Source: Methylocapsa acidiphila B2
Lineage (GTDB): Bacteria; Pseudomonadota; Alphaproteobacteria; Rhizobiales; Beijerinckiaceae
Assembly (NCBI RefSeq): GCF_000427445.1
Contig: NZ_KE386496.1
Location: 1,488,001-1,552,000, forward strand
Direction: 5' to 3'
Length of the DNA stretch: 64,000 nt
In this document: one piece after another, positions 1 to 9,790 of the stretch
Numbering within the stretch: position 1 is the stretch's first letter
Layout: each line of letters opens with the position of its first letter
Translations under genes and position numbers: made by a program
Notes under the pieces: model-generated
Databases searched by the model: none
What the model saw: only the letters and a program-made list of their open reading frames with translations
Told to the model about the DNA's origin: nothing

Positions 1-124
1 TCCGCCAAGATCCATAGAATCTTCAATGCAACTTTCGATTGCGCGCAATCTTTTGCTCAATTCTTGACCACTCAGACAGTCTGTTTCGAGTGAAGCCGCA
101 TCAGGCGCCTCTTTGGGTGAACAT

Positions 125-874
125 CTAATCTTTGCGCAAAACATAAATGAATGTTTCAGCTGCATCGGTGCGCAACCACTGAAACAACAAAAGTTGCCCG
201 AGTCTCCACAGCAAAAATGCCGGTATAAAAACTTGAAAATACGAACTTATCCAGAATAAGCGCCGCACCTCGACCTCGAGCCTGTTTTTCTTGGCGAGCT
301 CTTCAATCTGACTAGGCGTGCAGTGCGAGTAATATGCACGAAACCCCTGCCCTTTTGCCTCGGGGTAAAAGAACCGGAGCAGCGATTTCTTAAGGTTTTC
401 ATCCAGCAGCAAATTCAGGCGTGCGAAAACGGCGTTGCGGGACGGCACGAAAATGAACATGCGACCGCCGTCTTTCAGCAAGCCAGCGAGAGCGCGCATC
501 GCCCGGGATGTATCCGGAACGTGCTCGAGCAGCGCCCGACAAATCACGGCGTCAGCTTCGGCGGCGCCCACAAACTCCCCGATGTCCGCAACGATCGCGC
601 GATCATAGGCGCCCGGCGGCGCTGCAGCCAACTCCTCGGCGCTGATGTCGAGACCGACCACTGTCATTTCCCACTTTTCTTTGGTTTCTCGACTTAGGCA
701 TGGAGTGCGGCCGCTGCCGACGTCGTAGAGCGTAATTCCGCGTCGCAGAGCGAGAGGGACAATGTGATCCGTAAAATGGCGATTGCCGTCTTCGCGGACG
801 CGCTCAGGCAAAATCGAGTCAAAGGCTTGAGAAAGCCGAATGTTCGCTTCAATCAAAGTTCTCACTAATCCCAT
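125..874 (-). CDS. SAM-dependent methyltransferase (class I)
   Basis: Predicted cytosolic class I methyltransferase of about 249 residues. The glycine-rich SAM loop is seen as DVGSGRTPC about 50 residues in, followed by an acidic turn (VVGLDIS) and a LLEHVPD motif IV/post-motif region of the Methyltransf_11/25 type. The C-terminal 45 residues are hydrophobic (FQVFIPAFLLWRLGQLLLF), which suggests membrane association. I chose the ATG at 874 because AAGGAAGGG lies just upstream; the open frame continues upstream to 1042 without homology-like sequence. It is the last gene of the leftward exopolysaccharide-type segment, downstream of the sugar transferase, so a lipid-linked sugar or polysaccharide substrate is likely, but this is inference. 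Family call is solid; substrate unknown. Confidence 0.8.
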   Translation of the reverse strand: MGLVRTLIEANIRLSQAFDSILPERVREDGNRHFTDHIVPLALRRGITLYDVGSGRTPCLSRETKEKWEMTVVGLDISAEELAAAPPGAYDRAIVADIGEFVGAAEADAVICRALLEHVPDTSRAMRALAGLLKDGGRMFIFVPSRNAVFARLNLLLDENLKKSLLRFFYPEAKGQGFRAYYSHCTPSQIEELAKKNRLEVEVRRLFWISSYFQVFIPAFLLWRLGQLLLFQWLRTDAAETFIYVLRKD

Positions 875-1321
875 GAACCCTTCCTTGACGCCTGAATTAA
901 AAGGCTCGGGCCAGAGGCGAGCTCGCACCGCCCATCCAGCCTTTCCTAAGCTGTGGGATCTGGCAAGCGGCGTCTTTCTCGAACCCGGCGTTCGCCCAAA
1001 TTTTTGAGCGTCATCGCCTAGCCTACGGCTTTCCGGCGTCAAGATATTGGCGTCGCGGAATCTCGCGAGTCGGTTTTCCCGCTATGCCATGTTTGAAGAC
1101 CGCACTTCACGACCGCCTGTGCTGAAGCTCCATTGCGCTTGTGCAAGACTATGGAGGGAAGCTTTTCGTGCGCAGTTTGGAAAGCTACCGCACTTCGGTG
1201 AATCGCTTCACCCGATAGGATATTTCGTTTCACGTGTCGCGCAACGCTGAGCGCAGCGAGACTAGGCTAACCTTTTTTTGGGGCGGCTCCTCATTCAACC
1301 CCTCGGGCGACCGGTCGCGAA
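875..1321. other. Intergenic stretch without a convincing gene
   Basis: About 450 bases between the methyltransferase and the sugar transferase. Only short overlapping frames exist, on both strands, with no ribosome binding site and no recognisable domain. It contains the upstream extension of the methyltransferase frame (875-1042). Confidence 0.5.
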
Positions 1322-2878
1322 TTATTCCGCCACCACACTGAAGAATGCAGCCGCGTCGCCTTCCGAAACTACAGGCTCCTTGCGCGCGTCGGCTTCAGCG
1401 CGGTGCAGATACTCCCACGCTTCGCGGATCGCCGCTGCATCGATGGTCTCGCCGAAGATCAAAATAAGCGCCGTCCGGATGAGCGTTTCGATGTCCAAGG
1501 CGAGCGACGCGTTGTGGACATACCAGACGTCGAGCGCGCCTTTATCCACGGCCGAAATGTCGCGCCCGCCCTTGACCTGAGCCCAGCCCGTAAGCCCAGG
1601 CCTAACGAGCAGCCGCGCTGCGAATTCCGGCGGTTGGTCGACCGGCAGCAAAGGCCGCGGTCCCACGAAGGACATGTCGCCCCAGAGAATGCTTAAGAGC
1701 TGGGGGAGCTCGTCCAAGCGCGTGCGCCGCAGGAAGCGTCCGATGCAGGAAGAGCGTTCGTCCTCGCGCAAGCGGCGGCCGGAAGCGTCATGCGCGGGAG
1801 CCATGGTCCGCAGCTTGTAAAGCTTGAACGGCCGGCCGAATAGACCTGGCCGCTGCTGCCAAAATGTTAAGGGCAATCCCAGATCGATCGCAACGAGCGC
1901 CGCGGCGAAAGCCATGAGCGGAGCGACGACGATCAGCAATCCTAGAGCGGCGAAGCAATCGAGCGGGCGCTTGGCGCGCCAATAAGGCCGCCGAGCCAAT
2001 GCGGCCAGGTGTTCAGAACTCAGCGAAAGCGCGGTGAACGAGTTTCTCAAGGCCGCGACTGCCCCCTCGCCGGCTTCGCTGGCGAAACGCGGTCCGAGCC
2101 CCATTTGATCAACCAAGAATTCGACACAGACGCTAGTGCCTTTCTCGATTTCTAACAACGCATCTTGCGCGTCGCGCGAGAGCTTGTCGAAAGCGCTCGT
2201 CACCACAATGCGGTCGACGAATACACCGTGAACCTCGAGAGCGCGAAGCGCGTCCACAACCTCCTCGCACGTTCCCAAAATTTGGTGTCTCAGGACAGCG
2301 CGCCCGACATGGCGACCGTCATCGTTTGTCAAGACGCCCGCGATCAGGACACGTTCGCGCGCGATCGCGGCTACGGCTCGCAAATAAAGAGCCGCCAGCT
2401 CATTGAGGCCAACGACAAGCACAGTTTCGCACCTAATTCTTTCTTGCGGAACCGCTCGGGGGGTCTCTTTGGCTCCCAGCCGGATCAACTCACCCGCGGC
2501 GTTGCGCCAAGTGCGGGCTAGGATGCGCAAGCCGACGAGAAAGAATAGCGTCAGCAAGCCTTGCAGAAGAGGCAACGAGCGCGGCACCCCGTCGAGGCGG
2601 TTGAAATTGAACCCGATCGCTAGGGCGCCGATCACCGTCGCCGCAATCGCGAAAGTAATCCGCAGGTAGTCCGTCATCATCGAGAACCGCCAGACGGGCC
2701 GGCTAGTTTGAAATGCTGGAAAGGTGACTGTAGCGGCTGCAAGCGTGCACAGAAGATATGGCCCGATATCCCGGAGCTGGGCCATCGAGAACTCGAAATT
2801 CTCCCTCAGAAATAGCGCCAAGACCGTGGCGAAAGCAACAACAACGACGTCAATGATCAAAAAGAGTAATTGACGCAT
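1322..2878 (-). CDS. Undecaprenyl-phosphate sugar phosphotransferase (exopolysaccharide initiation)
   Basis: Polyprenyl glycosylphosphotransferase of about 518 residues, which moves a sugar-1-phosphate from a nucleotide sugar to undecaprenyl phosphate at the inner membrane to start polysaccharide assembly. The N-terminal half has several membrane segments followed by a Rossmann-like CoA-binding-type domain (TVLVVGLNELAALYL). The C-terminal half is the bacterial sugar transferase domain: one helix (CFAALGLLIVVAPLM), then YKLRTM, RRTRLDELPQLLSILWGDMS, VGPRPL and RPGLTGWAQV, which carry the catalytic residues. Length matches the WbaP/ExoY-large type. The ATG at 2878 follows a G-rich Shine-Dalgarno-like run. 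The reading frame stays open upstream into a serine recombinase remnant, so an automatic caller would give a false 723-residue fusion. Confidence 0.88.
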   Translation of the reverse strand: MRQLLFLIIDVVVVAFATVLALFLRENFEFSMAQLRDIGPYLLCTLAAATVTFPAFQTSRPVWRFSMMTDYLRITFAIAATVIGALAIGFNFNRLDGVPRSLPLLQGLLTLFFLVGLRILARTWRNAAGELIRLGAKETPRAVPQERIRCETVLVVGLNELAALYLRAVAAIARERVLIAGVLTNDDGRHVGRAVLRHQILGTCEEVVDALRALEVHGVFVDRIVVTSAFDKLSRDAQDALLEIEKGTSVCVEFLVDQMGLGPRFASEAGEGAVAALRNSFTALSLSSEHLAALARRPYWRAKRPLDCFAALGLLIVVAPLMAFAAALVAIDLGLPLTFWQQRPGLFGRPFKLYKLRTMAPAHDASGRRLREDERSSCIGRFLRRTRLDELPQLLSILWGDMSFVGPRPLLPVDQPPEFAARLLVRPGLTGWAQVKGGRDISAVDKGALDVWYVHNASLALDIETLIRTALILIFGETIDAAAIREAWEYLHRAEADARKEPVVSEGDAAAFFSVVAE

Positions 2879-2899
2879 ACTACCCCCCCGGAAGCTAAA

Positions 2900-3525
2900 A
2901 AGGCGCGGCGATCTAACAGTCAGCGCCCCCGGAATACTCTTGAATGTGTCAACCTTATCGAAGACCTCTGCAGTGGACACCTGCACGCGGTGGTCTGGAT
3001 CCTTCTCGTAGCGGTCGCCGACCTTCTCAAAGCCGACAGGAGCGCCGACGACGAGTTCGCCGCGACGCGTCTTCTCGTAACGAGTGGAAAGCAAGCGCTG
3101 GCGCAAGAGATCGAGCTCATATTTGTTGGGGCTGCACTTCAGTCCGAGTAGCAAGCGATCGTTGCCGTGCCGGGGAACGTAGATCGTCTCTTGGTCGATC
3201 AGCACGGTGTCGTCCACGCGGCACATCTCAATTAGCTGCTGCCAGTCCCGGCTGTTGCGAGCGAAGCGCGAGACCTCGCGCGCGCGGATGACGCCGACCT
3301 TGCCGAGGCACACCTCTGCGACGATCCGCTCGAAGCCGGCGCGCAGGACGCCGCCTGCAGTAGAGCGGCCTAGATCATCATCTATTTCCTCGATCTCGGT
3401 CCAGCGGAGCGCCGTCAGCCGACCCTGCATGGCGTATTGCAGTGTGCTGCTTTCCCGGTTGTGCAGACCTTGATGGGCCGAGGCCTGACGCACATAGAGC
3501 AGCGCCTTGCGCTCCAGATAAAGGG
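2900..3525 (-). pseudogene. Serine recombinase (resolvase-type) remnant
   Basis: A truncated large serine recombinase. Visible pieces of the family are ALLYVRQAS near the start (catalytic-loop region of the resolvase domain, its serine position now within RQASAHQ), VSRFARNSRDW, DTVLIDQETIY, DRLLLGLK and YELDLLRQRLLSTRYEKTR. The match stops after VGDRYEKDPDHRVQ, so the C-terminal DNA-binding half is gone. No normal start codon lies in front of the conserved N-terminus (tandem stops, then CTG/ATT). By chance the remaining frame is open into the downstream sugar transferase. It is a relic of a mobile element and should not be fused to the neighbouring gene. Confidence 0.75.
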
Positions 3526-3553
3526 AGCCGGATTTAATCAGAAATCATTATGG

Positions 3554-3617
3554 GCCTCCGCAACTGAGCTGGTCCTGCTTGCCTGGCCTGTTCCAAGATC
3601 AGCTCAGTGGCGGAGGC
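3554..3617. repeat. 18-bp inverted repeat (stem-loop)
   Basis: The 18 bases at 3554-3571 (GCCTCCGCAACTGAGCTG) are the reverse complement of 3600-3617 with a single mismatch, separated by a 28-base loop. There is no T-run after it, so it is not a standard terminator. It sits between the recombinase remnant and the IS3 remnant and may be an end of a lost mobile element or a recombinase site. Confidence 0.6.
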
Positions 3618-3847
3618 TGGCCAGCGCGGCTCGCGTCTCCCTTGGCATCTCCCGCCGCCCGGGTATATTCGTCTGGGTCTCTGGTGGGCCGTCGCCGAAC
3701 CGATCCATCTGCTGCGGATCGCCGCTCCCCACGGGCGGGCAGGCTTCGGCGCTTTCCTTCATCGCTGCGGTCTTGACGTGACATGGGCGAAGTGGTCCAG
3801 CTTTTGAGTTAGTTTTCTGGCGGATTTCCCAGGTTTGGAACGGGAGA

Positions 3848-4179
3848 TTGGCCATGAAGAGGAAGCGGTTTTCGGTTGAGCAGATCGTCGCGGTTTTGAA
3901 GCAGGGGGAATTGGGCCTGCCGGTTGCGGACTTGGCCCGACAGGTCAGCATTTCCGAGCAGACTTTTTATCGATGGAAAAGCCAGTACGCCGGGCTGGAG
4001 TCGGATCAGGTCCGCGAGTTCAAGCAGCTTTCGGAGGAAAACGCCCGGCTGAAGAATCTGGTCGCGGAGTTGAGCCTGAACAAAACCGTCTCGCAGGATG
4101 TCCTGTCAAAACGGTTTCCCGGCCAGCGCTCATGAAGAAAGTTGTCGCCTACGTGACGGCGCGTCACGCCAGCAGCTGA
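3848..4179 (+). pseudogene. IS3-family transposase OrfA, truncated element
   Basis: The N-terminal 88 residues are a typical IS3-family (IS407-like) OrfA: KRKRFSVEQIVAVLKQGE, an HTH (VADLARQVSISEQTFYRW), and the leucine-zipper-like segment EENARLKNLVAELSL. The frame ends at 4135. The expected continuation (SRPALMKKVVAYV) is seen in another frame up to 4179, as in the OrfA-OrfB overlap. Then OrfB is cut off by the IS5-type element on the other strand. Without the DDE domain the element cannot move by itself. Confidence 0.8.
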
Positions 4180-4985
4180 GGCGAATTGAGGCCAGGCGGA
4201 GAAAAGCGAGCGCGTTTCAGGTGAGATTTTCGAAATCCTTGGCCAACCGGCGGCAGCGATTAAGCCACGCGAAAGTGCGTTCGACAGCCCAACGGCGCGG
4301 CAGAAGCTCGAACCGTTTAGCCTGATCGGAGCGGTTGACGATTTCGATTTGCAGCTGCGGCAGGATTTTGGCTGAAGCCTTGTAAAAGACCGGGCCCTGA
4401 TATCCGCCGTCAGCAAAAAGCTATTGCAAAAACGCATACAAGCCGAACAAGGTGGAGAGGACAACCACGCCGCCGTCACGATTTTGAATATCGGCTGGAT
4501 GCACAACAACATGAAGCAGCAAGCCTAGCGTGTCGACGAGGATATGGCGCTTCTTGCCGTCGATCTTTTTGCCCGCATCATAGCCGCTTGGATCGATGTT
4601 GCCCCCCTTTTTCCACGCTTTTCACGCTCTGGCTGTCGATGACGCAAGCCGTCGGGCTTGCTTCACGATCCATGGCTTCGCGACACTTCGCGTAGAGCGC
4701 GTGACGAATGCGATCCAGCGTGCCATCCCAGTTCCAAAGATCGAAATAACTAAACAGCGTGCTCTTTGGCGGCAGGTCTTTGGGAACATAGCGCCACTGG
4801 CATCCCGTGCTCAGCACATACATGATGCCGTTCACAATTTCCCGCGGTTCAACCGAGCGCTTCCGTCCGCCGCGTTTGGCCGGAGGGATCAAGGGCTCGA
4901 CATGCGACCACTCGTCGTCCGTCAGATCGCTCGGATAGCACAGCTTGTCACGATTGTATCTCGGGCGGTTTTCTGGCGTCCACAT
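4165..4985 (-). pseudogene. IS5-family transposase, frameshifted and with stops
   Basis: IS5-family (DUF4096 plus DDE) transposase read leftward from the ATG at 4985. The N-terminal 130 residues include LTDDEWSHVEPLIPP, GCQWRYVPKDLPP and [15 protein letters not shown]. At a run of six G residues near 4602-4607 the frame changes. The second half ([20 protein letters not shown], then FADGGYQGP and [16 protein letters not shown]) continues in a +1 frame. That half also contains two in-frame stops, one before LFADGGY and one after FENLT. The G-run shift alone could be programmed, as in some two-ORF IS5 elements, but the two stops make it inactive. It cuts into the IS3 remnant to its left. Confidence 0.82.
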
Positions 4986-4989
4986 CGGC

Positions 4990-5870
4990 GGCCCCTTCTC
5001 GAATCAGGCCGCCTCAAATGAATCACAAATGATTCATCCCATTCAACTACTTCCCGGACGGACACTTAGGTCTGGGCCTGGCGGAAGCGGGTCTGATCCT
5101 TGAGCCTGAGAAGCCAGATCGTCTCAGGTGGCCTCGGCCGCCGCGTTGGGTTCACATCGGCGCTCGATTCTTAACTGCGTATCGAGCAATGCCTTTTCAT
5201 TGTGAGACAGTAACTGTTGCGACCTCATCGCGGACGCATGCTCCAGGCTCCGCTTCACCTCCGCCAACGGCCCTCACGCCGCGCCGTGAGAATCGTCGCC
5301 GCAAGGCTTTCCTCATCTCCCGCCAGGACAATCAAGGCAATATCCTGTGGAATATTTTGTAATGGCATGCTATGCGGCGGCGGTTGTAGCGCGCGGCGAG
5401 CAACGCGATTTCCTTGCTTGACTGCTCAGCGCGTTTCCAGCGGACGCGGCTCATACCGAGAAAAATTCGTCTCGGCGCCGACGCGATCCCTCACCGATAT
5501 TCGCCTCGATCATCAGATTATCGGAGGGGAATTCGCCACGACATACCGACTGGCAAAAACGCGCAAACTTTCGCCACGGCGAACAAGACGACCTCAGGAC
5601 CGCCCTTCCCCAACGCCGCGTCCGTCGCCTCCCACAGCACAAATCGACGTTTCCGGGGTCAAGACCTCGGGCCACTCGCCTGTCTCGTCGCCGCCCCGTC
5701 AATTATTCCACGACGGCCAGCAAACCCAGACAAGCGTTCCGCGAAGTTTAAAGCACCCGCCCCTCGCCGCAAAACCCGCAGAGACGGACAAATCCATTCG
5801 GCCAAGCTACCGCCGTTTGGGTGACTCGTAGCCCGAGCGCCCGTTATACTTTTTGCATTTAAGGTCGAAC
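4990..5870. other. Long non-coding gap between IS5 remnant and NusG-like gene
   Basis: About 880 bases with no supportable gene. Open frames up to 204 residues exist, but their sequences are arginine/proline-rich, low in hydrophobic residues, and overlap one another on both strands, as expected for shadow frames in GC-rich DNA. This is the place where a polysaccharide operon controlled by the NusG-like protein would be expected to begin, so it is probably deletion scar. Confidence 0.5.
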
Positions 5871-5874
5871 CGCC

Positions 5875-6387
5875 TCAGACGACCGGTTCGACCCACGAAC
5901 GGGCGAGCCTTACGCGAATCCCGCCGCCCATGATTTCAAGCAAGACTTCAACGCGGCCCGCGTCGTCCAGTCGATCAAGAACCCCAAGCGCTTGTGCAAA
6001 GGGTCCGGCCACGAGGCGAACCTTTTGACCGCGCTCGAGAGAATCGGAGAACTGAAGCCCCCCCGACCTATCAGCCGACCGGATCAGTGTTTCGACGATC
6101 CCCGCTGGCGCCGGAACCGGCCGATCATTCACCATAAACAGGGTCGTCACGCCCATCGTGCTATTGACGCTGCGCCAGCGATCGCGTTCGAGATTCAGCG
6201 CGACAAATAGATACCGCGGGAAAATCGGTGCAATCACATTGCGCATCTTGCGCGCATGACGCACCGTTTTCAGGTATTGCGGAAGGAACGAACGAAAGCC
6301 TTGCCGCCTGAGATGGGTCTCTGCCGTGGCCTCTCGGTGCGGCCATGTGCAGGCGAGAAACCACCTTTCGCCCGAGAAGAGGGCCAT
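5875..6387 (-). CDS. NusG-family specialised antiterminator (RfaH-like)
   Basis: A NusG paralogue of about 170 residues. The N-terminal NGN domain is seen as RWFLACTWPHREATAETHLR, GFRSFLPQYLKTVRHARK and IFPRYLFVALNLERDRWRSV. The C-terminal part is a KOW domain (LERGQKVRLVAGPFA...LGVLDRLDDAGRVEVLL). Divergence from housekeeping NusG and the YLKTVRHARK/FPRYLF signature match specialised NusG proteins such as RfaH, UpxY and LoaP, which bind RNA polymerase and help transcription through long polysaccharide operons. GAGG lies 8 bases before the ATG at 6387; an upstream ATG at 6417 would add ten residues. The downstream side is now IS debris, so its target operon may be lost. Confident family call, role inferred. 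Confidence 0.82.
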   Translation of the reverse strand: MALFSGERWFLACTWPHREATAETHLRRQGFRSFLPQYLKTVRHARKMRNVIAPIFPRYLFVALNLERDRWRSVNSTMGVTTLFMVNDRPVPAPAGIVETLIRSADRSGGLQFSDSLERGQKVRLVAGPFAQALGVLDRLDDAGRVEVLLEIMGGGIRVRLARSWVEPVV

Positions 6388-6595
6388 GTTTTCGGCCTCG
6401 CGTATATCGGCCGCCATCAGCTGCGCCCAACATATCCGGAGCGGCTCCTCACGACACTTGTGCGCCGATGATCGCTGGTTGACGCTGCGAGCGTCGTTCT
6501 CAAAGCGCTTCCGAGAAATAAATGGGCGAACATAGCTAATCTCCTCCCGAGTGAGAGATGATATGTGACGCCTATATTTTATGTTTAAATATACA

Positions 6596-6919
6596 TTAAG
6601 GGTTAGCCGAATGCAAGCGTAGCCATTCGGTCAAGACCGCAGCCTGCGTAGCCGCCCGGCGCTGCAACCAATACGTCCATTTGATTTTGAGCCTCTGCGC
6701 TGCTTGAGCCATTTGACGTTTATGCTCCTCGATAAGGCTTTGGAGGTTTTTTACGCCGAACTCAGTAAATGCTGATGTAGACAGATCAGCGGTTCCGTAG
6801 ACAGTGATATGCCCTTCTTCGGGCTCCAACTCCATGGCGATTTTCTGCAGTCAGTCTTCATCCTCAGCGAGGATTTCAGCGACGCGGCCGTTGGTGAACA
6901 CATAGGTCGGCGTCGTCAT
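6596..6919 (-). pseudogene. Hypothetical protein interrupted by an in-frame TGA
   Basis: One continuous frame starts MTTPTYVFTNGRVAEILAED, meets TGA at 6851-6853, then continues LQKIAMELEPEEGHITVYGT and about 75 more residues to a normal stop. The frame, the acidic linker and the absence of any frameshift suggest one original gene of about 107 residues in which TGG (Trp) became TGA. No family recognised. The second part is helical and rich in Gln, Lys and Arg. A downstream restart at the ATG inside AMELEPE (6835) could still give a 79-residue protein. No good ribosome binding site is visible before 6919. Confidence 0.45.
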
Positions 6920-7008
6920 GTTCAGGCTGCTTTCGCGAAGGCCTGGCTTGCCGCCAATTTCAAGGTAGGAGCTCGGCCACCTGGCTTTGCGGCTGGCTAG
7001 CGATGCTT

Positions 7009-7740
7009 GGTAGACACATCCGCCAGCCATGCCTGTAGGTCGACGTCGCAAAGTTTTGCGGTTTCAATCAGGACGTACATGACGGCAGCTCTCTCAGCAC
7101 CACGTTCGGAGCCGGCGAAGAGCCATGACTTTCTTCCAAGTGCGAGACCACGCAGCGTCCGTTCCGCCGCGCTGTTCGACAGGCAGATCCGGCCGTCATG
7201 GACAAAGCCCGTGAAGGCCGGCCATCGTTTGAGTATATAGTCGATCGCCTTTGCGACCGAGGCGTGGCGGGAGAGCCTGGCGCGCTCTGAGCGCGTCCAT
7301 CCTTCAAGCGCGTCAACCAGCGGTGCCCTTCGTTCCTCCCGAACCGCCAGCCCCGCTGCTCGGCGTCACGCCGTTGATCTCACGCTCGGTACCGAACAAC
7401 ACGCCAATGCGTTTGACCGCTTCGAGGAAAATCGGCGAGATCGGCGGCGCATCCTTTCCCGGCCGCGCATTTGCGGCGATATCGGGCAATTTGAAAAACT
7501 TTCGTCGCGCGTGGTTCCAACACAGCGCCTCAGTAATAAGACTGGGCTTGCGATCTGGAAGATAGAGTCTGTTGTAGCCGCCATAGGCGTCGGCCTAGAG
7601 GCGTCCGGCAAACTGCGCCAGATACCCGCTCGGGATTCTCGCCGGTTGGGTCGCGGGAGGCGTAGAAGGAAGCGGCAGGCGGTGCCGCGCCGCCAAGCGG
7701 TTTGTCGTCGCGCACATGAACCCAGATGCGACCTGTCGGG
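7009..7740 (-). pseudogene. IS66-family transposase (TnpC) C-terminal remnant
   Basis: Read leftward in shifting frames, this stretch gives the classic IS66 TnpC C-terminal half: PTGRIWVHVRDDKPLGGAAP, ADAYGGYNRLY, WNHARRKFFKLPDIAA, ISPIFLEAVKRIGVLFGTER, RARLSRHASVAKAIDYILKR, GRICLSNSAAERTLRGLALG and KSWLFAGSERGAERAAVMY, ending with KLCDVDLQAWLADV. A TAG replaces the residue before ADAYGGYN, and at least two frameshifts lie between GVLFGTER and RARLSRH. The N-terminal half (zinc-binding and linker) is missing. It abuts the end of the SNF2 remnant, which it probably truncated. Confidence 0.8.
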
Positions 7741-7759
7741 CTGGCTGCTGCACCCGGCG

Positions 7760-9000
7760 ACATCGCGTTGCGCGATGAGCAGCAGCGCAAGGACCTGGTG
7801 GTCTTGCCGAGATCCATATCATCAGCGAGGCAGGCGCCGAGGCCGAGGCCGCTGACGAGCCGCGGCCAGGCGACTCCGTCCTGTTGATAGGGCCGCAGTG
7901 CACCCTTCAACGCCGCGCCAGGATCTTTTCCCGAAGCGCCGGACCTCGCGACGCTTGCAGCGTCTCGGCCGAGCCAGTGCTCGGCCGCGACTTCCGCCCA
8001 GCCGGCGCAGGCATCTTCCATTTCTTCCTCGGTCACCGCCGCGCCGGCGATCATCTGCATCGCCTCGGCGAAGCTCGCCCCCTCTAGAGCGGCGAGGGAT
8101 TCGGCGGCGAGGAACCGCGTCATCGCCCGTTCGAGCCGGGCGCGATCAACCTCGACCCATTGGCCGCAGGAGCGCGAGCCCGTCCGTACCCGCGAGCAGA
8201 AAGCTGACTTCTCCCTCCGTTAACGGCTCGCCGTCGAGCGTCGTCTCGACCCTGAAATCGAGCAGCCCATCAAGCCCAAGGGCCGAAGGCTCGCGGCGCC
8301 CGATCGTCGCCGTCGCCTTGGGGCGCGGCAGCCGCGCGGCGCGCCAGGCCGGCGGCATCCGCAAAATTACCCCCCGCCTCCTCGAGATCGGGCGCGGACT
8401 GGATGAGCCCGAGAGCCTCTCGCGGTCCCCGCGCACCGGGTGGAAGATGTCGCCAGCCTCGACCAAAGGCTTCAGCCAATCCCATTTGTCGGCGGCGCGC
8501 TGAACCGGCCGGAGCACCGATAGAAGCTCATTTTTGTTCTTCGCCCCGGCATATTGGCGCAGCGCCTCGCCCGAAGGCAGATGCTGGGCCGTGGCGGCGG
8601 CCGAGAGGCCGGTCGTGTAGGTCGCCATGAAGGCGCAGGGGACTTCCGCGTCGCACCATCTTCCGCGAGGTTGAAATGAACCCTGCCGACGAGGGTCCAG
8701 GCCGGATTGCGTTGGGCCAGAAAGCTCTGCAAATCCGTCCCGGCCGCCGCATAATCCCGGACAAAGGCGGCGTCCGACGCCTCCCACAGGGCGCGAAGAC
8801 CCGTCGACGTCAGATATTCGGCGCCGGCCATCATGGGCGCGGTCAGGGCCAGCGACCCGAGTTCCGCCAGCGTCGGCGGTTTAAAACGGCGGCGTGGCGC
8901 ATCCAGGTTGTGCATGTCGAAGCGCTCGCCCGCCGTCCAGGCGTTCTGGGCGATGCATGTCGAAGCGCTGAACTGGAGCGAATCGACCGCCGCGCATCGG
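7760..9000 (-). pseudogene. SNF2-family helicase remnant
   Basis: N-terminal part of a SNF2/DEAD-box ATPase of the type often carried on integrative elements. Pieces seen in different frames going leftward: PPTLAELGSLALTAPMM and GAEYLTSTGLRALWEA (about 8750-8890), LPSGEALRQYAGAKNK, WLKPLVEAGDIFHPVRG, LDFRVETTLDGEPLTEGEVS, AMTRFLAAESLAALEGASF, then the start of the ATPase domain, YQQDGVAWPRLVSGLGLGAC and ADDMDLGKTT (a mutated Walker A: the family has DDMGLGKT). Several frameshifts separate these pieces, and everything after motif I is replaced by IS66 sequence. No function left. Confidence 0.72.
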
Positions 9001-9178
9001 ATCTCGGCCAACAGTCTGCGCCGCTGGCGCGATCTCCTTGAGAACGGCGAGGTGGAGATCGACTGGCGCGCCCGTCTTCATCCGAGCGCCCTCCCGACGA
9101 AAAGCACCGGTGCTAACAGTAGTGCTAACGACTGCGCGGCCGAATCGGCCTTGACAGCCGCATCGGACGATGATTCGC

Positions 9179-9249
9179 AGATGCCGGAGAAGCGCACCCG
9201 CCGCACCTTCAGCGCAGAAGAAAAGCTGGCGATCGTGCTGGAATCCTAG
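9179..9249 (+). pseudogene. Possible transposase N-terminal scrap
   Basis: A short stretch encoding MPEKRTRRTFSAEEKLAIVL followed by a stop. The basic start plus TFSAEEKLAIVLE resembles the HTH opening of IS3/IS66-type OrfA proteins. It lies 13 bases from the 3' end of the tRNA-Leu gene, at the edge of the decayed region. Too short to be certain. Confidence 0.3.
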
Positions 9250-9262
9250 CAAGCTTAGAGGC

Positions 9263-9553
9263 TGGTGCGGGCGGCGGGACTCGAACCCGCACTCTCATAG
9301 AGAAACAGATTTTCGTACCACTTCGACTTTCGCCGCCGCCCAAAGGCGTTCGTGGTCTGGACTATCCCTTCGCCATGGTCGTCAAACCGAAGGCGCCGCC
9401 CGTCTAGTCTCTACACCTTCCCCGAGGGGCTTGGCTCGGGATTGGCTTAGGCGCCCCTTAGCTTTCCCCGACTTTGAGCGGTTCTACTCCGCAAATTTCC
9501 CTGCGGGCACTCCAATTGAAGTCTGCTGCGTCTACCGATTTCGCCACGTCCGC
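9263..9553 (-). tRNA. tRNA-Leu(UAA) split by a group I intron
   Basis: Exon 1 is 9553 to 9519 (GCGGACGTGGCGAAATCGGT then AGACGCAGCAGACTT). Exon 2 is 9313 to 9263, with the anticodon-stem 3' strand TCTG, a long variable arm (TCTC/GAGA), a T arm (GCGGG TTCGAGT CCCGC), acceptor CGCCCGC, discriminator A and encoded CCA. Joined, the anticodon loop is CTTAAAA, giving anticodon UAA and a class II tRNA of 86 nt including CCA. The intron enters between U34 and A35, the same place as in cyanobacterial tRNA-Leu introns. One oddity: acceptor pair 5-68 is A-C. All other acceptor pairs are Watson-Crick. Confidence 0.85.
9314..9518 (-). ncRNA. Group I intron (IC3-like) in tRNA-Leu
   Basis: A 205-nt self-splicing-type intron with no ORF. 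P1 can form between exon end ACUU and the intron guide GAGU, placing a U-G wobble at the 5' splice site. The core has CCAATCCCGAGCCAAGCC (P4/P6 region), GGGGAAGGTGTAGAGACTAG (P7 5' strand region) and AAGGGATAGTCCAGACC (P7 3' strand), matching block by block the sequences I recall from the Anabaena tRNA-Leu intron. The intron ends in G, as needed for omega-G. It should splice through two guanosine-dependent transesterifications. Confidence 0.85.
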
Positions 9554-9751
9554 ATTTGTGATGTCGTGCCACAGTGCGCCCTGTCGCGCCAGGGCGAAGA
9601 TCCAGTGGCCTCGTAGGTTCTGGCTCCTATTTGGCTCCTAGCTCTTTTTCTCCTCCCGCTAAGCTTCCCGAGCGTTGCCTGCCAAGCTATTGATTATACA
9701 TATAAACAAAGTCGAAATACGCGACGAAACGTCGCATGCAGACAAAGGTGT

Positions 9752-9790
9752 TTTTAAGTCCCTTGCGTCTACCAATTTCGCCACGTCCGC
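9752..9790 (-). pseudogene. 5' half of a second tRNA-Leu(UAA)
   Basis: From 9790 leftward the sequence reads GCGGACGTGGCGAAATTGGT AGACGCAAGGGACTTAAAA, an intact 5' half of tRNA-Leu(UAA) through the anticodon loop. It then diverges (ACACC instead of the expected TCCC of the anticodon stem). No variable arm, T arm or 3' acceptor follows. The first 16 bases are identical to the 5' half of the intron-bearing gene 200 bases downstream on the same strand. A tRNA fragment from recombination or element insertion. Confidence 0.75.

Follow-up and report, generated by a model that had tools for sequence, protein, structure and literature searches.

The locus described here raises the question of why a tRNA gene beside an integrated element should carry an intron in its anticodon loop. 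The stretch analysed, referred to as the window, comprised 64,000 nucleotides of Methylocapsa acidiphila B2 (contig NZ_KE386496.1, positions 1,488,001 to 1,552,000), and the gene in question, an intron-bearing tRNA-Leu(UAA), was located on its minus strand at 9263-9553. The 5' exon (9519-9553, minus) ended with U34, the 3' exon (9263-9313, minus) extended from A35 to the encoded CCA, and an ORF-less intron of 205 nt (9314-9518, minus) lay between U34 and A35. The junction was placed by the U/G rule: a U precedes the 5' splice site and pairs with a G of the guide, and the final base of the intron is G. The internal guide GAGU of P1 (9509-9512, minus), read from the sequence, pairs with the exon end ACUU with U.G at the splice site, and the guide (GAGT in the DNA) showed no variation in 11 intron loci. 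The joined exons folded as a tRNA with the anticodon UAA, a long variable arm, and the encoded CCA. A single pair of its acceptor stem was broken (A5-C68), while the other tRNA arms and the intron core were intact. Among the 28 type-A rows listed, C68 was found in just two, both of them rows of the window gene itself. The A5-C68 mismatch could make for a weaker tRNA.

The intron was assigned to group I by an Rfam match and by covariation over 11 loci. The Rfam Intron_gpI model (RF00028) matched 9339-9528 (minus) along its full length, with a score of 45.1 bits and an E-value of 3.7e-10, which was significant though below the gathering score of 50; a default Rfam scan was silent on this intron because of that cut-off. 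When 11 related introns were aligned, 96.8% of cells in the named helices, the P3/P7 pseudoknot among them, were paired. The 3' strand of P3 (9396-9401, minus; 5' strand 9476-9481) was paired in 98.5% of cells with both-side changes in one pair, and the 5' strand of P7 (9405-9409, minus; 3' strand 9360-9364) in 100% with both-side changes in two pairs, so that compensatory changes backed a conserved group I core with its pseudoknot. The covariation score of this alignment was 0.215 versus 0.109 (S.D. 0.011) when shuffled, none of 500 shuffles scored as high, and sliding the partner strand gave at most 0.057. The folding energy of the single intron sequence was not distinctive (z -0.75). These results bore out the first-pass annotation, which had proposed a 205-nt, ORF-less group I intron at the U34/A35 site of a tRNA-Leu(UAA); two of the checks it had named, the Intron_gpI search and the folding of the spliced product as a leucine tRNA, came out in its favour, the latter with one acceptor mismatch. 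We infer that the intron would splice itself from the RNA.

The gene appeared to have no substitute in its host. The 42 tRNAs detected in the genome included leucine anticodons CAA, CAG, GAG, and UAG; the list was without tRNA-Ile(GAU) or tRNA-Ala(UGC) and was therefore incomplete. A pattern search for tRNA-Leu 5' halves (up to 2 mismatches) returned six, namely the CAA, CAG, GAG, and UAG genes, the intron-bearing gene, and one fragment. Neither this search nor the incomplete tRNA listing yielded a second complete tRNA-Leu(UAA) gene elsewhere in the genome. UUA made up 22 of 9994 codons and was present in 12 of 20 long ORFs. Based on the sole copy found and the presence of UUA codons, the host would probably need the UAA tRNA made from this spare gene. 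The default run of ARAGORN did not report the intron-bearing gene, and its intron mode placed the junction off by one base and called the gene tRNA-Phe(GAA). Default tools (ARAGORN and Rfam gathering scores) thus overlook a tRNA gene on which the host probably depends.

A fragment at 9752-9790 (minus) proved to be the truncated 5' half of a native, intronless tRNA-Leu(UAA) gene and to form the left end of the element. It was identical at 39 of 39 positions to the native 5' half in three congeners (G002, G014, and G005) and ended in the anticodon loop, with the core CTTAAAA at 9752-9758. The native 3' half was found left of the window (G000:C2:1456933-1456986), 40.8 kb from the 5' half and beside a tyrosine integrase. 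CTTAAAA was common to both native halves and constitutes the entire anticodon loop; when the halves were joined at CTTAAAA, the sequence folded as an intact tRNA-Leu(UAA). The host tRNA was therefore split at a short core, and it was rebuilt at neither element end. The intron-bearing gene was located about 200 bp inside the near element end, in the same orientation as the native gene, and its anticodon stem differed from the native one. The first-pass annotation had placed this gene at the border of a decayed integrated element. The gene does adjoin an element, but its position is not incidental, in that the element ends are the native tRNA halves and the gene lies inside as a replacement.

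Positions 1-9751 of the window belonged to the element, and the remainder (G000:C2:1456933-1488000) carried the integrase together with the native 3' half. The integrase, of 385 aa and starting at C2:1457165, lay about 180 bp inside the far element end. Arm-binding, SAM-like, and catalytic domains were recognised by Pfam; the protein was without the longer C-terminal tail of its relatives, and its presumed catalytic residues were conserved across the aligned relatives. The paired repeat AGGAGCCAAATAGGAGC (9623-9639, minus), which resembled repeats at both ends of three complete elements, is a probable arm-type integrase site, and the end-repeat pattern had one match in the whole window. Cargo ORFs scanned with Pfam encoded glycosyltransferases, methyltransferases, chain-length and Wzy_C proteins, a MurJ-like flippase, asparagine synthase, a NusG-like protein, and transposases, and judging from these matches the cargo is probably a polysaccharide locus. 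In the window they included a NusG-like protein (5875-6417, minus; PF02357, E 1.4e-15), a methyltransferase (128-1042, minus; PF13489, E 9.5e-12), and a sugar transferase ORF (1322-3493, minus; PF02397, E 1.5e-51) that begins with a resolvase N-terminal domain (PF00239, E 1.4e-10). The ORF at 1322-3493 may be a resolvase-sugar transferase fusion, or its reading frame may run by chance through what is left of a recombinase. No virion structural genes were seen among the subset of cargo ORFs given to Pfam.

Of 15 genomes of the genus, 11 had an uninterrupted tRNA-Leu(UAA) with the other anticodon stem (with an altered 5' end in G012), three had the intron (G000, which is the genome of the window, G003, and G007), and in G009 the pattern search showed no tRNA-Leu(UAA). 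The flanks of the native site in the window shared nothing with congeners beyond the tRNA at the DNA level, and nothing was shared between the flanking ORFs. Because gene order around the native site was not shared with congeners, the empty-site reconstruction rests on the tRNA halves. Sequence comparison gave good support to an element architecture of a split native gene, an integrase, and a spare tRNA inside.

The same layout was found in two genomes of other genera, G113 (58.3 kb) and G236 (about 9.0 kb), in which a native 5' half, an intron-bearing tRNA-Leu(UAA), cargo, an integrase, and a native 3' half were all present. The empty sites of both restored the tRNA, the integrases of G000, G113, and G236 were 64-77% identical, and paired repeats such as AGGTGCAGCATAGGTGC were located near both ends of all three elements. 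A decayed native 5' half lay beside the intron gene in G299, G235, and G118, with the integrase and the matching 3' half on a separate contig in G118. The intron gene was at a similar distance from the element end in G000, G113, G236, G299, and G118. No native remnant was seen in 20-kb stretches of G003, G017, G032, G081, G082, G243, and G062, nor in 13 kb of G015; the intron of G003 was the nearest to the window intron in the tree, yet its 20 kb held none. In G236 (L436 14016-14219; L159), a second type-A tRNA 5' half was found past the native 3' half, followed by a decayed tRNA 3' half and intron, which probably represents tandem elements at one site.

Integrase relatives were also searched for without regard to introns. 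This search identified 11 places with identities of at least 63%, distributed over 10 of the 397 family genomes. Four of these lay beside a tRNA 3' half with the core CTTAAAA, six beside one with CTCAAAA (tRNA-Leu(CAA)), and one was left unassigned. All four genomes of the CTTAAAA group had a Leu(UAA) intron gene, compared with about 44 complete such loci in the 397 genomes. In the tRNA-Leu(CAA) elements, the spare was intronless and its loop read TTCAAAA in 6 of 6 (C32 to U), while the native CTCAAAA was seen in 5 of 6 halves and in the four intact native genes shown; the native half of the decayed G113 Leu(CAA) element read CTAAAAA. In G093, G100, G029, and the decayed G113 element, about 195 bp separated the spare from the truncated native half; the spare was farther off in G195 and G388, the half of G195 being on another contig. 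The same C-to-U change was found beside a truncated tRNA-Leu(CAA) half on a viral contig (L531) with a more distant integrase relative. Since Leu(UAA) spares had an intron and Leu(CAA) spares a base change, the spares seen with this first family of integrases did not keep the core. Type-A tRNA-Leu(UAA) genes without an intron were present in G029 and G100.

We scanned 247 intron loci for truncated halves, which became 236 after identical introns were collapsed. Near these 236 loci, truncated and intronless 5' halves of the corresponding tRNA occurred in sense orientation upstream 21 times, antisense once, and downstream never. The 21 comprised 19 Leu(UAA), one Lys(CUU), and one Thr(UGU); L101, L279, and L299 stood outside them, as the T-arm pattern labelled them intact, though the post-loop sequence does not pair. 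Five loci with a spurious host (L111, L230, L270, L325, and L333) and three repeats (L001, L044, and L046) were left out of the truncated-half and integrase counts. For loci with at least 1.6 kb upstream, a truncated half was present in 9/53 non-cyanobacterial Leu(UAA) and 1/2 Thr(UGU), and in 0/15 cyanobacterial, 0/12 Arg(CCU), 0/2 Thr(GGU), and 0/1 Lys(UUU). Most of the Leu(UAA) intron genes examined, many of them in loci with short flanks, had no element remnant nearby. In L113 (Lys(CUU)), L261 (Thr(UGU)), and L111 (Lys(UUU), assigned by eye), a truncated 5' half of the matching tRNA was observed 100-165 bp upstream of the intron gene; the distance to the tRNA-Lys(UUU) half was about 100 bp in L111, which entered no count.

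Ten loci had an ORF of 356-449 aa between the truncated half and the intron gene. Two of these ORFs were 50-70% identical to the other nine and 22-27% to the first integrase family, and Pfam gave every such ORF one or more integrase-type matches, several of which fell short of the curated cut-off. Of 96 non-cyanobacterial Leu(UAA) intron genes, 16 had this second-family integrase immediately upstream, two of the 16 matches being partial (L097 and L264, with 147 and 76 aa). The integrase was upstream of 0/17 cyanobacterial, 0/19 Arg(CCU), 0/5 Thr(GGU), 0/3 Thr(UGU), 0/2 Lys(CUU), and 0/1 Lys(UUU) intron genes. Carriers included Phenylobacterium, Bradyrhizobium, Sphingobium, Devosia, Pelagibacterium, and Acidobacteria. 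The combination of truncated tRNA, integrase, and intron-bearing tRNA was repeated by a second, unrelated integrase family in other Alphaproteobacteria and an Acidobacterium. On a viral contig (L530), the second-family integrase was accompanied by a truncated Leu(UAA) half, but a rescue tRNA was not detected there.

The distribution of the intron was determined with a covariance model of its core, which matched 96 of 397 family, 49 of 385 class, and 34 of 349 phylum genomes under stricter filters that lost some weak matches. The family sample gave 100 loci (covering 101 of 102 matches) with the hosts Arg(CCU) 48, Leu(UAA) 44, Thr(UGU) 3, Thr(GGU) 1, and Lys(CUU) 1, and three that were partial, decayed, or not tRNA. 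The class sample gave 57 loci from 58 matches: Leu(UAA) 18, Arg(CCU) 9, Lys(UUU) 7, Thr(GGU) 5, Lys(CUU) 4, Leu(CAA) 4, Thr(CGU) 2, and eight that were partial, decayed, or without host call. Some hosts were assigned by hand. With complete Leu(UAA) loci this frequent relative to Arg(CCU) in both samples, a Leu(UAA) intron is no rarity in Alphaproteobacteria, for which the first-pass annotation had named Arg(CCU) as the well-known case. A gammaproteobacterial tRNA-Leu(UAA) intron was reportedly described in 2002. The base before each assigned intron site was a U, located anywhere from position 33 to 36. In a tree built from 100 cores (139 columns, with many forks open), the host tRNA changed at least 15 times, five hostless rows not being counted. 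Eight cyanobacterial rows and one Legionella-group MAG formed one clade (100/100), and the window intron grouped with those of G003 and G486 (100/87) among alphaproteobacterial introns. A cyanobacterial source of the intron, for which the first-pass annotation had called for such a tree, was thus not favoured at this resolution.

Several loci stood apart from the common hosts. In L080, L127, L135, L261, and L310, the intron was located between U34 and G35 of tRNA-Thr(UGU), and in L080 the intron guide and the P10 side looked adapted to the new exons. In L185 (G656:C76:2081-2840), the 3' part of a Leu(UAA)-type intron was preceded by an antisense ORF that we take, by motif, to have the look of an HNH homing endonuclease, possibly a homing version of the intron family. 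Two weak model matches, L158 (G365) and L186 (G631), resembled group I introns whose hosts are phage-type protein genes and not tRNAs. Among viral contigs with the intron core motif, 9 of 34 had it in a recognisable tRNA gene, on contigs of up to 543 kb; the hosts were Leu(UAA) in L555, L569, L570, L575, and L583 and Lys(UUU) in L561, L576, L578, and L582. According to the available text of a 2014 review (PMC3984707), every phage intron known at that time lay in a protein gene.

Based on these results, it is likely that the window gene is the rescue tRNA of the element, and that its intron splits the integrase core in the DNA and leaves by splicing in the RNA. The tyrosine integrase would insert the element at the anticodon loop CTTAAAA and thereby split the host tRNA-Leu(UAA) into halves that are now 40.8 kb apart, and the element would persist since it supplies a complete spare tRNA-Leu(UAA) near one end. 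A spare with the whole CTTAAAA would itself be a target for the element's own integrase and for related elements. With the intron exactly within the core, between CTT and AAAA, the spare would be no attachment site in the DNA, and splicing would restore the loop in the RNA, giving the sole tRNA found that reads UUA. The intron thus probably keeps the element's own integrase off the spare tRNA, a shielding role suggested by the arrangement of the sequences. With slightly more doubt than confidence, we extend this reading to many non-cyanobacterial bacterial group I introns in tRNA anticodon loops, which may be parts of mobile elements that shield a rescue tRNA from integrase; on this reading, one intron family would have served as a shield in Leu(UAA), Lys(CUU), Lys(UUU), as well as Thr(UGU), and what remains after element decay would look like an ordinary tRNA gene.

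The rescue function could be accepted and the intron still be a neutral self-splicing passenger acquired with the gene, which we regard as possible though unlikely. Leu(UAA) introns were widespread outside recognisable elements, and the intronless type-A tRNA-Leu(UAA) genes of G029 and G100 also agree with such a passenger. However, in the elements examined the intron always split the integrase core, intron-bearing spares accompanied two unrelated integrase families, and the Leu(CAA) elements changed the core by base substitution instead. Alternatively, altered spare tRNAs might evade the anticodon nucleases of defence systems rather than an integrase. Anticodon-loop changes in phage tRNAs are discussed in this way in the available text of PMC10865867, and the C32U change of the Leu(CAA) spares would fit, but an intron that is spliced out leaves the mature loop unchanged and so cannot hide the tRNA, which makes this explanation improbable.

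It is less probable again that the gene is a decaying relic from which no working tRNA is made. The A5-C68 mismatch, the rarity of UUA (22 of 9994 codons), and transposase remnants nearby point in that direction, whereas the remaining tRNA arms and the intron core were intact and no other UAA anticodon was found in the genome. The least probable reading, which we give very little credence, takes the gene as a chromosomal resident that gained its intron by homing or reverse splicing and to which the element is unrelated. Group I introns are mobile, this family is found in many tRNAs, and most copies had no element nearby; but the window gene is enclosed by the native halves within the element, five genomes show a similar spacing between gene and element end, the anticodon stem of the gene is unlike that of the native one, and the three complete elements speak against such a resident gene. 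The rescue tRNA with a shielding intron remains our preferred reading. Against it stand the many Leu(UAA) intron loci with no truncated half, G003 and the seven other genomes without a native remnant in the stretches covered, L530 with its integrase and half but no spare, the missing C-terminal tail of the window integrase, the acceptor mismatch, and the unshared gene order around the native site. If the extension to many other bacterial tRNA introns is also true, such introns would owe their spread to a role as integrase shields and not solely to being neutral selfish RNA. The preferred reading itself would offer a testable reason for their anticodon-loop position and their persistence without a homing gene, in that the intron would remove the integrase target and splicing would keep the tRNA.

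Rescue tRNAs after integration are known from the tRNA-dependent lysogeny of actinobacteriophages (PMC10865867). As far as the available text of that paper goes, the present case differs in that the spare has a group I intron in its core, the host is alphaproteobacterial, and the scan of cargo proteins revealed no phage structural gene; the word "intron" occurs in that text once, in a reference. For Archaea, Randau and Soll (cited in PMC3293823 and PMC4090602) proposed that tRNA introns protect against integration, and intron gain from the mobile element itself has also been proposed (PMC3293823). As described in the portions of these papers available, the two proposals are alike in that an intron in a tRNA attachment site blocks integration; however, archaeal introns are cut by proteins and the tRNA is rebuilt from element and host, whereas here the intron belongs to group I and the spare is wholly element-borne.

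For bacterial group I introns, the tRNA hosts named in the available text of three papers are Leu(UAA), fMet, Ile, and Arg, or are given in general terms (PMC8450103, PMC4033280, and PMC3984707). tRNA-Thr, tRNA-Lys, and tRNA-Leu(CAA) were absent as hosts from the open-licence PMC literature searched, and no bacterial integrative element with a group I intron in its rescue tRNA was encountered in the literature searched. The Bartonella tRNA-Arg(CCU) intron BbgpI, which self-splices according to the available text of PMC7717549, is likewise a related group I intron in the anticodon loop. Unlike the window intron, Arg(CCU) introns occupy another tRNA and the U36/A37 site, and here they accompanied neither truncated halves (0/12) nor a second-family integrase (0/19). 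The cyanobacterial and plastid tRNA-Leu(UAA) intron resembles the window intron in its tRNA, its U34/A35 site, and its fold, but the cyanobacterial introns formed a separate clade, again with neither truncated halves (0/15) nor a second-family integrase (0/17). Together, the proposed reading would join two ideas that have so far stood separately, the rescue of lysogens by carried tRNAs and the protection of tRNA genes from integration by introns.
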